Part shown: in pieces, positions 13,925 through 41,396 of the stretch
How the letters are laid out: every line of letters starts with the position of its first letter
How positions within the stretch are numbered: the stretch's first letter is position 1
Assembly (NCBI GenBank): GCA_947630675.1
Contig: CANRIN010000010.1
Span: 1 to 41,396 of the forward strand
Length of the DNA: 41,396 bases
Origin: an uncultured Clostridia bacterium
Lineage (GTDB): Bacteria > Bacillota > Clostridia > Oscillospirales > JAAYOS01
Direction: 5' to 3'
The notes under the pieces: model-generated
What the model saw: only the letters and a program-made list of their open reading frames with translations
What the model was told of the DNA's origin: nothing
Databases searched by the model: none
Translations under genes and position numbers: made by a program

Positions 13925-13953
13925 GCTGATTTTGCGTTCTTCGCACACGGCAC

Positions 13954-13982
13954 TTTATTTCGGACAGAATTTGTGGTATAAT
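13954..13982 (+). promoter_or_regulatory. Candidate promoter for the lepB operon
   Basis: TATAAT (13977-13982) with TGG directly upstream and a weak -35 TTTATT (13954-13959), 17-nt spacer. If used, lepB-rbgA-rnhB mRNA begins with a leader of almost 590 nt. Confidence 0.55.
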
Positions 13983-13984
13983 TA

Positions 13985-14025
13985 GTCGGCGCGAAATGTG
14001 CTCGGGCAATGAATTGCCCTGCGCA
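13985..14025 (+). repeat. 41-bp repeat module, copy 1
   Basis: Begins GTCGGCGC, ends TGCGCA and contains the hairpin GGGCAAT-GA-ATTGCCC (14004-14019). The same 41 bp occur inverted at 33128-33168 with two differences (39/41). It starts 3 bp after the -10 of the promoter above. Confidence 0.85.
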
Positions 14026-14030
14026 ATTTC

Positions 14031-14291
14031 CACGCGGTCGGCGACCGCGTGAGGGGCCCTTTCGATCAAAATGCTCGGGCAAGCACGAGGGCGCCGACAT
14101 ATTCCACGCCGAAACCTATTCAGCCCTCGTGAGCATTGCCCGCTTCGCGGACAATGCCAAACATTGATATAATGGCCCTGCGCGATGTTGCCTACGGCAA
14201 CATCAACCGCTGCGAACAGCGAGGGCTCAAGCCAATTCTTTATCCGACATTCTACCGCCCTCGCCGGCAATATTCACTTTGCGAATATTGC
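14031..14291 (+). repeat. Chain of hairpins with alternating complementary blocks
   Basis: Perfect hairpins: 10-bp arms at 14031-14040/14042-14051; GATGTTGCC/GGCAACATC (14184-14204); GCAATATTC/GAATATTGC (14267-14291). Four blocks alternate: CACGAGGGC (14084-14092), GCCCTCGTG (14123-14131), GCGAGGGC (14219-14226), GCCCTCGC (14257-14264). Block 1 pairs with 2 (9 bp), 2 with 3 (CCCTCG core, 8 bp with the flanking AG), 3 with 4 (8 bp), so alternative folds exclude each other. Confidence 0.6.
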
Positions 14292-14339
14292 CCGACATTG
14301 AGCTAATTAGAATGCGGAGACGGCTTCAGCGGAAAATAG

Positions 14340-14480
14340 GCGCGCGCTCCGCGAAAAGAGTTTTTCCGATGTCCGACCGTTTGCACAATGTCGGGACGTC
14401 GGTGCAGAGCGCCGAATGCCGATGCGTCCGGCAACGGGTTGCGTGCGTTATATCCCGAGGGCGCATTCTCTGCGAGGCTG
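14340..14480 (-). repeat. Diverged copy of the dispersed four-hairpin element
   Basis: Read on the minus strand it has the linker GCCTCGCAGAG (14468-14478) and further on GGAAAAACTCTTTTCGCGGAGCGCGC (about 14342-14368), both in the order seen in the copies at 22.8-23.1 and 32.9-33.1 kb. The first hairpin is replaced by a longer one and the last hairpin is missing, so this is a partial or decayed copy. Confidence 0.5.
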
Positions 14481-21966: not shown

Positions 21967-22656
21967 TTATTCGTCGCGGACAAGCTCGCAGCGCAGCTTG
22001 TCGAGCGCCTTCTTCTCTATGCGTGAAACATAGCTTCTCGAGATGCCGTAGCGAGCCGCTATTTCGCGCTGCGTGAGCGGCGCCGCGCCGCCGAGGCCGT
22101 ATCGCAGCGACACGATCTCGTGCTCGCGCGGCTCGAGTACGCGTTCCATGACGTCGAGCAGCCGCGCCTTCCGCTCCTCGCGGCTGATGCTCTCTATCAT
22201 CTCCTCGGACGTATCGGCGATGGTGTCGCCGAGGACGAGCGGGTCACCGTCACCGGCGGCGTCGAGCTCATCGTCGAGCGACAGCTCACCCGCCGTCTTG
22301 CGGAGGCCGCGGAAGTGCATCAGTATCTCGTTTTCGATGCACCTCCCGGCGTAGGTCGCGAGGCGGATGTTTTTCGTGTGGTCGAAGGTGTCTATCGCCT
22401 TTATGAGACCGATCGTGCCTATCGAGATGAGGTCCTCCTGGTCCGCCGCGGAGGTGTAGTACTTCTTTATAACGTGCGCCACGAGGCGCAGGTTGTGCTC
22501 TATCAGCCTGTCGCGGGCCTGCTTGTCCCCCTCGGCGCGGAGCTCGAGGCAGCGGCGCTCCTCCTCGGCGGAGAGCGGCTTCGGGAACGTCCCGCCGCCG
22601 TTTACCCTCAGCGTCATGTAGAACCCGTGAAGTATCAGCCAGAGCGCTATGTTCAT
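21967..22656 (-). CDS. sigK: Sporulation sigma factor sigma-K
   Basis: A 229-residue sigma-70 factor, the late mother-cell sigma factor of endospore formation. The opening has a hydrophobic pro-sequence (NIALWLILHGFYMTL) followed by FPKPLSAEEERR, as in Bacillus pro-sigma-K, so activation by membrane proteolysis is likely. Region 2 reads ARDRLIEHNLRLVAHVIKKYY...DLISIGTIGLIKAI...LATYAGRCIENEILMHFR, and region 4 LTQREIAARYGISRSYVSRIEKKALDKL. The gene is whole: no skin-like element interrupts it. I start at ATG 22656; a GTG 12 nt upstream is one base from the GGGGAGGA and too close, and an intermediate TTG (22659) is possible. A sigma-E-like promoter lies upstream. Confidence 0.93.
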   Translation of the reverse strand: MNIALWLILHGFYMTLRVNGGGTFPKPLSAEEERRCLELRAEGDKQARDRLIEHNLRLVAHVIKKYYTSAADQEDLISIGTIGLIKAIDTFDHTKNIRLATYAGRCIENEILMHFRGLRKTAGELSLDDELDAAGDGDPLVLGDTIADTSEEMIESISREERKARLLDVMERVLEPREHEIVSLRYGLGGAAPLTQREIAARYGISRSYVSRIEKKALDKLRCELVRDE

Positions 22657-22684
22657 CAATCGGATCACTCCTCCCCTGTCGTAT

Positions 22685-22712: not shown

Positions 22713-22720
22713 AGAAATTT

Positions 22721-22772
22721 CGCGGGAAATCGCAGGAGCGGGCTTTGCCCGCTCCTTTACCAATTTCCCGCG
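22721..22772. repeat. Nested inverted repeat (cruciform-like)
   Basis: Outer arms CGCGGGAAAT (22721-22730) and ATTTCCCGCG (22763-22772) enclose an inner hairpin GGAGCGGGC-TTT-GCCCGCTCC (about 22735-22755). Confidence 0.8.
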
Positions 22773-22774
22773 AA

Positions 22775-22950
22775 GCCGCCGGACAGAGCGGAGCTCTGCC
22801 GGCGGCAACGCTCCGCTACGCGCCGAGTTTTCCGCCTTCGGCGGAAAATCGACGCACGCTCCGCGAGAGGTATTTTCGGCGACGTACACGCCGCCGCCGA
22901 AAATAGATCCTACCTTATTTCGCGCCTGACGGCGCGAAACTCTGCGAGGC
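22775..22950 (-). repeat. Dispersed four-hairpin element, copy B1 (inverted)
   Basis: Read on the minus strand: linker GCCTCGCAGAGTTT; hairpin 1 (TTTCGCGCC-GTCA-GGCGCGAAA); hairpin 2 with the apex GGCGGCGTGTACGTCG; linker CGGAGCGTGC; hairpin 3 (TTTTCCGCC-GAA-GGCGGAAAA); linker GCGTAGCG; hairpin 4 (CCGGCAGAGCTCCGCTCTG...CCGG). The same order of linkers and hairpins recurs in copies B2 and B3. Confidence 0.8.
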
Positions 22951-22975
22951 AAAAGCGCCGAGACCTCTGCAAAAA

Positions 22976-23144
22976 GCCTCGCAGAGTTTTGCCGCGGAAG
23001 CGGCAAAATAGAGTCAAATTTCGTTTTTTTCGGCGACACGCGCGGCGAAAAAAACTCCTCTCACGGAGCGTGCGCCTTGACGGCGAAGCCGTCAAGGCGC
23101 GTAGCGGAGTGCTGCCGCCGGCAGAGCTCCGCTCTGTCCGGCGG
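22976..23144 (+). repeat. Dispersed four-hairpin element, copy B2
   Basis: Starts GCCTCGCAGAGTTT (a 14-bp inverted repeat with the end of B1, so the two copies meet head to head, 25 bp apart). Hairpin 1 is TTTTGCCGC-GGAA-GCGGCAAAA, hairpin 2 lies at about 23022-23055, then CGGAGCGTGC, hairpin 3 GCGCCTTGACGGC/GCCGTCAAGGCGC (23072-23100), GCGTAGCG and hairpin 4. Stem sequences differ from B1 but pair perfectly. Confidence 0.8.
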
Positions 23145-23180
23145 TCTCGCCGAAAATCGCGTCAGCGATTTTCGGCGAGA
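23145..23180. repeat. Perfect 16-bp-arm palindrome
   Basis: TCTCGCCGAAAATCGC and GCGATTTTCGGCGAGA, separated by GTCA, directly abut hairpin 4 of copy B2 and end 10 bp before the terminator stem of the opp operon. Confidence 0.85.
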
Positions 23181-23189
23181 TAAAAAATA

Positions 23190-23217
23190 GCACGGACGAC
23201 AACAAGGTCGTCCGTGC
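23190..23217 (-). terminator. Terminator of the opp operon
   Basis: GCACGGACGAC and GTCGTCCGTGC form a perfect 11-bp stem six bases after the stop of the DUF3899 gene; on the minus strand it is followed by TATTTTTTA. A strong intrinsic terminator. Confidence 0.9.
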
Positions 23218-23223
23218 TCATTT

Positions 23224-23640
23224 TTACTCTACGGAGTAGTACAGTACGATGAACACCACCGCAACGGCGATAAAGCCCAGTCCGCACCAGAAGAGGAAGC
23301 TGAAACCCTTCACGGGTCCCTTCTCCTCCTTGCGGGCGAGGTAGTCGCCGTACTTCTCGCGCTCGCGGAGTCCCCTGCCGGGGAGCAGCATCCGCTTTAT
23401 CGACTCGGCGGCGTATCCGAGAAACCTCAGCGAGCCCTCGTTTGTCAGCCATATGAGCGCGCCGACGCAGACCATTATCACTCCGGGGACGGTAAAGGAG
23501 TTCGCAAGCGCCTTATACCTGTCCGCCGGGTCGTGCATGAGCGAGAATTCGTTGAGCCAAAGGTACAGCAGCGCCATCAGCCCGCCGACAACCGCCGTCA
23601 CACCGTACTTTATGAGATTTCTTCGCAGCTTGTCGCTCAC
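23224..23640 (-). CDS. DUF3899-like membrane protein
   Basis: A 138-residue protein with three membrane segments: about 12-28 (YGVTAVVGGLMALLYLWL), 49-66 (VPGVIMVCVGALIWLTNEG) and 115-135 (LFWCGLGFIAVAVVFIVLYY), and between them a basic cytoplasmic loop (GRGLREREKYGDYLARKEEKG). This matches DUF3899, a small Firmicutes membrane family of unknown function. Translation starts at GTG (23638-23640), overlapping the oppF stop by 4 nt, so it is the last gene of the opp operon and coupled to it. A supporting role at the transporter is inferred from this position only. Confidence 0.75.
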   Translation of the reverse strand: MSDKLRRNLIKYGVTAVVGGLMALLYLWLNEFSLMHDPADRYKALANSFTVPGVIMVCVGALIWLTNEGSLRFLGYAAESIKRMLLPGRGLREREKYGDYLARKEEKGPVKGFSFLFWCGLGFIAVAVVFIVLYYSVE

Positions 23641-32902: not shown

Positions 32903-32943
32903 ACTCTGCTTTATCGGCCTCGCAGCTGTACCGTGTGCGACAG

Positions 32944-33112
32944 TCTCGCAGAGTTTCGCCGCCTATGGCGGCGAAATAGAGTCTGATTTGTTTTTTCCGG
33001 CGGCGTGTACGTCGGAAAAAACTCTTTGCGCGGAGCGCGCTTCGAAGCGCCGCAGGCGCGAGGAGCGAAGCGTAGCGCAAGGCACCGGCAGAGCTCTGCT
33101 CTGTCCGGTGCC
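32944..33112 (+). repeat. Dispersed four-hairpin element, copy B3
   Basis: Same order as B1 and B2: CTCGCAGAGTTT; hairpin 1 TTTCGCCGCC-TAT-GGCGGCGAAA (32954-32976); hairpin 2 GTTTTTTCCG/CGGAAAAAAC (32990-33022) with the apex GGCGGCGTGTACGTCG identical to B1; CGGAGCGCGC; a hairpin 3 of different sequence; GCGTAGCG; hairpin 4 (GGCACCGG...CCGGTGCC, 33081-33112), where the change to CACCGG is matched by CCGGTG. Confidence 0.8.
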
Positions 33113-33127
33113 CTCGGCGCAAAAGGG

Positions 33128-33168
33128 TGCGCAGGGCAATTTATTGCCCGAGCACATTTTGCGCCGAC
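33128..33168 (-). repeat. 41-bp repeat module, copy 2 (inverted)
   Basis: 39 of 41 bases match 13985-14025 on the opposite strand; it carries the same GGGCAAT/ATTGCCC hairpin and ends one base before the tldE stop codon. Confidence 0.85.
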
Positions 33169-33169
33169 T

Positions 33170-34462
33170 TTACTTGCCGCTTATCGTTACGCCGTCAAAC
33201 GCTGCCCACGGCATCACGCCGCCGCCCGACGATTCGGTGTCGCTGCTTATCGCGCGGACGCTCTTCATTAGCTCGAGGAAGCTGCCGTTTATCATCGTCT
33301 CGTTCACCGCGCCGACTATCTTTCCGTTCTCGACTAGGAAGCTGTTCTTCGCGACGCCGGAGAAGTCGCCGTTCTGGGCGGGCTCGCCGCCGGAGAAGCG
33401 GTTGACGATCATGCCGCGCTCCACGCCCGCTATTATCTCGGAGAGCGGGGTCGTGCCCGGCTCGACAAAGAAGCTGCCGGAGAGGTTCTTCGCGCGCTCG
33501 AAGCCGGTCTTGCGCGCGCCGTAGTCCGAGAGCATAAAGCCCTTGAGGACGCCGTCCTCGATGTAGGTCATGTTCTCCGACTTGAAGCCGCCCGCAAACC
33601 GCTCGCCGCAGACGACCTCCGGGTCGAGCGGGCGGCTCGTAAGGGTGAAGCCTTTCGATGCGACCTGACGGCCGAGCATCGAGAGCCACGGGCTCGTGCC
33701 GTCGATTATCGTACCGTTCGAGCAGAAGTTACCGAGAACGGTGTACATGAAGCTCGAGAGCAGGTCGGGGCTCGCGATGAGCGTGCCCGTGAACTTGCCG
33801 TCGACCGGCTTCGGGTAGAGAGAATCCGAGCTCTCGCGGAAGAGACGGCGGTGGGACGCCATGTCCATGAACGCGCGGTCGAGCGACGTGAACGCCGCGT
33901 CCGCGCCGTTGAAGGAGCCCGCCGTCTCGCCCTCGTGGGCGGAGAACATCGAGCTGAGGCCGTAGCAGCCCTCCTCAAGCTCGAACTCGGTGCCGTTCGT
34001 GTTCATGTAGATGCCGCTCTCGCGGCGGTAGTCCGCGATGAACTGCTCCATCATTATTTTCGGGAACTGCTCGCGCGTGTCGCGAAGGAACTCCTCTATC
34101 CTGTCATAGAGCGCCGCGACGTCCGGCACGAGCACGCCCTGCGTGAACTTCTCCTTGCCCTTGAACGGAGCGATGCGCTCGGCCTCGTCCGGCTTCGCGT
34201 TCTCGGCGGAGGCTATGGCTGCCGCGCACGCGGCGTCGATGTCCTCCTTCGAGGTCTGGTTTATCGCGGCGGTGCCCTTCGCGCCGTTCTTTATGACGGA
34301 GAGCGATACGCCGGTGTCGAAGAGCGTGCGCATGAGGCTGAACTCGCCGCCGTCGACGTTCAGCTCGTCGGTAGAGCTGTGGGAGACCGAGACCGCCGCC
34401 GCGTCCGCGCCGAGCTTTTCGAGCTTTTCGAGAGTGTATTCCGCTAATTTGCGATCGTTCAT
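33170..34462 (-). CDS. tldE: TldE/PmbA family protein
   Basis: A 430-residue TldD/PmbA family member, the partner subunit of the TldD-TldE metalloprotease. Hallmarks are RFSGGEPAQNGDFSGVAKNSFLVENGKI near the C-terminus and YGARKTGFERAKNLSGSFFVEPG. As usual for TldE it lacks the HExxxH zinc motif present in TldD. The complex trims and degrades unfolded peptides and matures peptide-derived natural products such as microcins; no precursor peptide gene is seen here. The gene follows tldD by 16 bp. A peptide-transport operon next door makes peptide turnover a plausible theme, but that is inference. Confidence 0.93.
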   Translation of the reverse strand: MNDRKLAEYTLEKLEKLGADAAAVSVSHSSTDELNVDGGEFSLMRTLFDTGVSLSVIKNGAKGTAAINQTSKEDIDAACAAAIASAENAKPDEAERIAPFKGKEKFTQGVLVPDVAALYDRIEEFLRDTREQFPKIMMEQFIADYRRESGIYMNTNGTEFELEEGCYGLSSMFSAHEGETAGSFNGADAAFTSLDRAFMDMASHRRLFRESSDSLYPKPVDGKFTGTLIASPDLLSSFMYTVLGNFCSNGTIIDGTSPWLSMLGRQVASKGFTLTSRPLDPEVVCGERFAGGFKSENMTYIEDGVLKGFMLSDYGARKTGFERAKNLSGSFFVEPGTTPLSEIIAGVERGMIVNRFSGGEPAQNGDFSGVAKNSFLVENGKIVGAVNETMINGSFLELMKSVRAISSDTESSGGGVMPWAAFDGVTISGK

Positions 34463-40645: not shown

Positions 40646-40918
40646 AACCGAACAAGGCAAAAGGCTTTTGACGGGGAGGAGTACGTCGGGTGTCCTCTTT
40701 CAGAGACGGGGCGGAAGGTGCAAGCTCCGAGAGGATCGGCGGAAGGTCGCCCCCGAGCCCCGGAGCCGAAAGCGTGAGCAACTAAGCCCCGGCGGGTTCT
40801 CCCGTTACAGAGAAGCGGCGTTTCTGCGCCGCATGAGGTGCGCCGCATTCTGCGGCGAATTTAGGTGGTACCGCGGTTCATCCGTCCTAAGCTGTGTGCT
40901 TTGGGCGGCTATTTTTTT
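40646..40918 (+). promoter_or_regulatory. T-box riboswitch controlling valS
   Basis: The T-box core reads AATTTAGGTGGTACCGCGG (40857-40875), whose TGGT part pairs with the free acceptor end of uncharged tRNA. Stem I lies at about 40670-40760 with GGAAGGTGCAAGCTCC in its distal part; the specifier is probably GTC (Val) at 40685-40687, following AGTA. The CGGG/CCCG stem III is near 40795-40815. The terminator is CCGTCC-AAGC paired with GCTT-GGGCGG (40882-40908) followed by ATTTTTTT. Binding of uncharged tRNA(Val) would favour the antiterminator and switch valS on. Confidence 0.9.
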
Positions 40919-40978: not shown

Positions 40979-41396
40979 ATGGCACGAGAACTCCCGAAGG
41001 CATACGAGCCTCAGGGCGTCGAAAAGCGCATCTACAAGATGTGGCGGGACGGCGGGTACTTCAAGCCGTCCGACGACCCCGAGAAGAAGCCCTTCACCAT
41101 CGTCATACCGCCCCCGAACGTCACGGGTCAGCTCCACATGGGGCACGCCCTCGACGAGACGTGGCAGGACATCCTCGTCCGCTACAAGCGTATGCAGGGC
41201 TATGCCGCGCTGTGGGTGCCCGGGACCGACCACGCCGGCATCGCCACGCAGATAAAGGTCGAGGAGCATCTGCGCGAGAACGAGCACAAGACCCGCTACG
41301 ACTACGGGCGGGACGCGTTTATCGACCTCGTCTGGGACTGGAAGCGCCGCTATGAGGGGCGCATCCACGAGCAGCTCGCGGCTCTCGGCTCGAGCT
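40979..41396 (+). CDS. valS: Valyl-tRNA synthetase, N-terminal 139 residues (runs off the window)
   Basis: The N-terminus of a class I synthetase. The family opening [18 protein letters not shown], the HIGH-type motif in [29 protein letters not shown] (about 43-70) and [17 protein letters not shown] identify ValRS. It charges tRNA(Val) with valine. The specifier in the T-box upstream agrees with this. GAGGTG precedes ATG. The C-terminal part, with editing domain and KMSKS, lies beyond the right edge. Confidence 0.96.

Follow-up and report, generated by a model that had tools for sequence, protein, structure and literature searches.

A probable REP/BIME-like, palindrome-rich repeat mosaic at gene 3' ends in Clostridia

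Among described systems, REP/BIME (the PU elements of E. coli; GTAG and CGTC super-families) are high-copy extragenic palindromes that lie mainly downstream of genes, form mosaic groups and carry alternative complementary residues in their stems (Di Nocera 2013, PMC3733652). Their unit, the REP, measures 20-40 bp and consists of one hairpin with a GTAG or CGTC tag at its foot, and G-T pairing is frequent in it (PMC3733652). REPs mobilised by RAYT (REPINs) are non-autonomous hairpins scattered in one genome. Palindromic repeats of Volvox organelle genomes, proliferating short hairpins with loops of 3-5 nt in non-coding DNA, are described as selfish (PMC2670323). The words Clostrid- and Firmicutes are absent from the main text of PMC3733652, and the literature searched yielded no description of REP-like repeats in these Clostridia or in Oscillospiraceae. 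The element analysed here appears, from its sequence, to be a REP-like repeat with new features, for which no earlier report in these Clostridia was found in that literature.

The window, a stretch of 41,396 nucleotides from an uncultured gut bacterium of the Clostridia, holds three complete copies of the element (22775-22950 on the minus strand, and 22976-23144 and 32943-33111 on the plus strand). The first two had been delimited in the original prediction with coordinates that proved correct to within 1 nt; as it had described, their left ends face each other, both copies begin with GCCTCGCAGAGTTT, and 25 bp (22951-22975, a spacer without strand) separate the two starts. All four hairpins and three linkers ascribed to each copy are present; beyond these, the element includes a fifth hairpin (22719-22774 and 23145-23180) and, in copies other than these two, a sixth, both missing from the original prediction. 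In full, the left end GCCTCGCAGAG is followed by H1, L1, H2, L2, H3, L3 and H4, and then by one or two tail hairpins (H5, H5b, H6), so that units of 170-280 bp contain four to six hairpins with near-perfect Watson-Crick stems, joined by conserved linkers; from stop codon to left end the distance is 213-281 bp in the element's own genome.

The plus copy runs from its left end GCCTCGCAGAG (22976-22986; conserved in alignment A1 of 43 sequences) through H1 (22987-23008; from folding, with covarying pairs), L1 (TAGAGTCAAATTT, 23009-23021; alignment A1), H2 (23022-23056; inverted repeat and covariation), L2 (CCTCTCACGGAGCGTGCG, of the GC-GNA-GC type, 23057-23074), H3 with a GAA triloop (23075-23097; inverted repeat) and L3 (CGCGTAGCGGAGTGCT, 23098-23113) to H4 (23114-23144; inverted repeat), all on the plus strand. 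The tail hairpin that follows (23145-23180, plus strand), an inverted repeat with 100% complementarity, belongs to the array, and a terminator-like hairpin of the minus-strand gene 23224-23640 (23181-23226, minus strand; inverted repeat) lies between that gene's stop codon and the array. The minus copy, at about 22776-22950, comprises the left end (22940-22950), H1 (22918-22939), L1 (22906-22917), H2 (22871-22905), L2 (22853-22870), H3 (22823-22852), L3 (22807-22822) and H4 (22776-22806), with the tail hairpin H5 at 22719-22774 on the same strand (inverted repeat). The third copy, located by both BLAST and the covariance model, continues on the plus strand into tail hairpin H6 (33112-33169), which abuts the stop codon of the minus-strand gene 33170-34462. 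A decayed array on the minus strand (about 13984-14478) was built from the same modules, namely H6, nested composite modules, part of H3/H2 and the CTCTGCGAGGC end. Immediately before it, at 13925-13984, stands a promoter-like TTTATT...TATAAT, and the decayed array may have its own promoter and be transcribed in the same sense as the stop-adjacent arrays. Elsewhere in the window, at 40658-40892, a T-box leader (RF00230, 116 bits) lies upstream of a gene starting at 40979.

The prediction of a dispersed family was borne out. BLAST found 41 copies in the 2.06-Mb genome, mostly full length and with 72-100% identity, and the covariance-model search that had been proposed as a check, run with a model of H1-L1-H2 built from 43 sequences (R1), returned 83 matches in the same genome, 60 of them at 87 bits or more. 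The genus was represented by five genomes (G000, the element's own, to G004), all multi-contig draft assemblies. Three of the four congeners examined (G001, G003 and G004) are rich in the element, and the congener search found no copy in G002; a nested composite hairpin module follows the same distribution, with at least 53-58 copies per genome in G000, G001, G003 and G004 and none in G002, copy numbers in relatives being lower bounds set by the limited number of candidates scored. Matches were obtained in 19 of 197 genomes of the order, spread over four families and often with many copies per genome, and in two of 299 genomes of the phylum, both within the same order. Carriers include Intestinimonas, Pseudoflavonifractor phocaeensis and further Oscillospiraceae, names from which the order is taken to be Oscillospirales. 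There was also a weak match in Vescimonas: a partial one in Vescimonas fastidiosa (NZ_AP023416.1, 476946-477036), on an 861-kb replicon listed in a plasmid collection. Phages and plasmids gave nothing beyond three weak partial matches.

A GC-rich genome contains many short inverted repeats, and the assembly is metagenomic, which would fit chance palindromes or an assembly artefact; however, this explanation is already refuted by comparison across genomes and retains next to no probability. Four genomes, each assembled on its own, have arrays at matching gene ends, element loci in other genera include an isolate, and 83 model matches occur in the element's own genome. Folded as single-stranded DNA, moreover, the two window copies reached z = -7.0 and -7.5 relative to dinucleotide shuffles, none of 200 shuffles being equally stable.

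The copies lie between called genes, the calls coming from a codon-usage script trained on seven clear window genes and applied to metagenome-assembled contigs. In 30 of 37 copies the gene next to the H4/tail side points at the element (binomial P about 1e-4). The gap between H4 and the stop codon measures 38-62 bp in 16 of these 30 and 100-112 bp in another 10, corresponding to one or two tail hairpins. The same orientation was found at 28 of 31 pattern-scan loci, mostly from other genera. Read on the gene strand, the usual order is stop codon, tail hairpins, H4, H3, H2, H1 and CTCTGCGAGGC, in many cases with a terminator next. The window minus copy is an exception to this orientation, its tail facing the start region of gene 21967-22668. 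The head-to-head geometry is incidental and not a property of the element: among the 83 matches, no pair other than that of the window is opposed within 200 bp. What recurs is a fixed orientation behind stop codons. Two opposed left ends are retained at the orthologous sites of the window pair in G003 and G004; in G001 a single H4-like palindrome is left between tail hairpins, as if the pair had collapsed there.

Fourteen gene ends that carry the element were traced in G001, G003 and G004 and, where they exist there, in G002. In the first three genomes nearly all of the 14 ends have an array, or what is left of one, behind the same stop codon; two ends were scored empty by the pattern list, and one of these, segment 5 in G001, still has module sequence. 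In G002, nine of the ten ends found are empty. Stop codon and terminator are adjacent there, for example at segments 3, 9 and 12 (at segment 9 a related terminator starts about 20 nt past the stop), from which it follows that the interval separating stop codon from terminator is where the array sits. A fresh insertion, present in one sister and clean in another, was seen at none of the 14 ends compared. The copies would seem to have entered gene ends before the sister species split, and the likely course is an old insertion behind stop codons, vertical inheritance and ongoing exchange of hairpins between copies.

It had been noted that the stems vary in sequence yet remain paired, and we found covariation beyond that of all shuffles: in alignment A1, 14 of 21 pairs have changed on both sides, and the count of compensatory changes, likewise proposed beforehand, gave 113 double-changed cells versus 29 in shuffles, with none of 500 shuffles as high. 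Among 61 matches from named genomes, double changes occur in eight of nine H1 pairs, H1 being the only independent evidence in this set because H2 was preselected by the search pattern. The stem types within the element's own genome are few (mainly three for H1, four for H2, three for H3 and about four for H4) and nearly unlinked, as 38 copies show 32 combinations and mutual information does not exceed that of shuffles except for H2-H3 (P = 0.05). At orthologous sites, H2 had changed on both arms in 17 cases (one of which is a misparse of another module), on one arm in none, and was unchanged in four; the corresponding numbers for H1 were 11, five and 12. Pairwise alignments of orthologous sites show hairpin swaps directly, among them one in which both sides of a tail hairpin's foot changed in concert, from CACTTG/CAAGTG to CCCTTG/CAAGGG. 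Stem differences are mainly a matter of swapping within a small repertoire of existing hairpin versions, which are combined with almost no linkage. Composite hairpin modules, for their part, sit nested in loops and linkers; at one locus in G003 (L230, G003:C2:79000-82600, about 1205-1310) such a module is nested within the H2 loop, and part of the outer stem is retained.

Selection on structure, either in RNA or as DNA cruciforms, had been offered to account for the paired stems. The data favour the DNA half of this proposal, and the differences between stems arise mainly from the exchanges just described. Were an RNA strand selected, G-U pairs would be tolerated and A-C mismatches would not; the equal rarity of the two therefore argues for hairpins at the DNA level. 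In H1 of 106 elements (965 pairs), 951 pairs are Watson-Crick, five G-T, eight A-C and one other, and in all hairpins of 55 arrays, read on the gene strand, 2539 pairs include 11 G-T and 11 A-C; H1 of the 61 named matches has 11 G-T versus 12 A-C. Although the hairpin finder is biased towards near-perfect stems, it makes no distinction between G-T and A-C. DNA mini-hairpins of exceptional stability are formed by sequences of the type d(GC-GNA-GC), with a G-N-A loop. H3 has a G-N-A triloop in 34 of 38 copies, and both L2 and L3 have the form GC-GNA-GC with a variable N, which points to DNA, as do the mismatch counts. One exception is a conserved plus-strand G-T pair beside the H2 loop (26 of 43 sequences in A1, and 53 of 61 in the set preselected for H2), which would suit a plus-strand RNA. 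As a whole, these features argue for hairpins kept at the DNA level and not as folded RNA.

A rival reading is a functional 3'-UTR RNA, in which the transcript of the gene strand would fold and control translation, mRNA stability or termination, the covariation being ordinary compensatory evolution. The fixed orientation directly behind stop codons, the positions kept across species and the strong covariation are what such an RNA would show, and translation in E. coli is lowered by REPs that lie fewer than 16 nt away from the stop, as PMC12306157 states with reference to earlier work. However, G-T and A-C mismatches are equally rare both on the gene strand and in H1, both arms change in one step, no Rfam 15 family lies over the element at the gathering score, and nine of the ten gene ends found in G002 manage without it; we consider a 3'-UTR RNA unlikely. 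(A permissive Rfam scan gave sub-threshold matches to LOOT and MIR918, for which the large palindrome is the best explanation.)

Stems at the DNA level without strand preference, a location behind genes and retention at orthologous sites would also suit DNA sites for a nucleoid or topology protein, comparable to the BIMEs of E. coli, to which gyrase binds; selection would keep such sites at the 3' ends of transcription units, places of supercoil accumulation. Binding by gyrase, IHF or Pol I belongs to the features of REP/BIME. However, G002, a sister species, lacks the element, its distribution in the order is patchy (19 of 197 genomes), and the sequences that a protein would read turn over rapidly, which makes such sites quite improbable as the main explanation.

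Outside the genus, 11 of 43 loci have the same 19-30 bp sequence, in most cases a terminator-like hairpin, to the left and right of the element, and score above all mismatched-locus controls; one of the 11 (L087) may be an internal module, and ten loci then remain. Duplicate terminator-like hairpins flank the element at L094, L095, L134, L141, L103, L093, L142, L149, L100 and L106. Within the genus there was no convincing signal of this kind, with three short palindromic matches in 38. The duplicated stretches suggest that insertion may duplicate the terminator. At L105 (3255-6596) and L157 (204-6606), 3-6 kb of genes lie between a pair of copies whose left ends face outward; such a pair may form a composite unit, as an autonomous element bounded by two copies would, or may simply be ordinary copies at two gene ends. 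As for candidate movers, a Y1/RAYT transposase was rejected since Y1_Tnp (PF01797) is absent from G000-G004, as was a reverse transcriptase, none being found in the genus; the carrier enzyme would then be one not recognised in these genomes. Loss of SbcD was also considered as the reason why palindromes survive. A full SbcD match was obtained in array-bearing G001, and only matches below threshold in G000, G003 and G004, which also carry arrays, and in array-free G002, so that no link to palindrome survival is seen.

Taken together, a non-coding, palindrome-rich repeat mosaic of REP/BIME-like character that occupies gene 3' ends is probably the best explanation of the whole. Within it, homologous exchange or template switching, guided by the conserved linkers, would swap hairpins, and an agent acting on hairpin DNA, whether a protein reading hairpins or arm-templated repair, would keep the arms matched. 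Arrays that begin a few nucleotides past a stop codon might in addition hold up ribosomes or shield mRNA, a role proposed for E. coli REPs, and translation might be affected, since E. coli REPs close to stop codons lower it (PMC12306157). Tentatively, and with more doubt than confidence, we suggest that a process at the DNA level renews hairpins at fixed gene ends as entire cassettes, one arm being copied from the other or a finished hairpin being brought in from another array; palindromy would be kept by this mechanism and not by RNA selection, and the arrays would make up a rapidly changing stock of hairpins behind stop codons throughout the genome. Covarying stems are the usual evidence for structured RNA, and their occurrence here alongside DNA-level signs calls for caution in covariation-based RNA discovery. 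Close species with different hairpins at the same positions provide a natural experiment on palindrome turnover, and carrier isolates make the element testable.

Group IIC introns insert beside terminator hairpins in one orientation; unlike them, the element has no ribozyme match in Rfam and no reverse transcriptase gene accompanies it in the genus. A MITE derived from a DDE transposon would have terminal inverted repeats, which are lacking here, the two ends (GCCTCGCAGAG and the tail hairpins) being unrelated, and a short target-site duplication, with which the 19-30 bp terminator duplication at about ten of 43 other-genus loci, and at none in the element's own genus, may be compared. The Volvox repeats resemble the element as proliferating short hairpins, but belong to organelle genomes, and the available part of their report (PMC2670323) describes no fixed orientation behind stop codons. 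With REPINs it shares non-autonomous hairpins scattered in one genome, whereas the Y1_Tnp gene is in none of the five genus genomes. Likeness to REP/BIME extends to high copy number, position downstream of genes, mosaic grouping and alternative complementary stem residues (PMC3733652). In contrast to the single REP hairpin, the element has four to six hairpins in 170-280 bp; it seems to have no consistent terminal tag, linker L3 being GCGTAGCG in most copies and GAAG or AGAG in others, following the G-N-A pattern, and G-T pairs are not in excess. Of the systems compared, REP/BIME are the ones that the element most resembles in its workings, despite the missing tyrosine transposase, the different size and the lack of an excess of G-T pairs.
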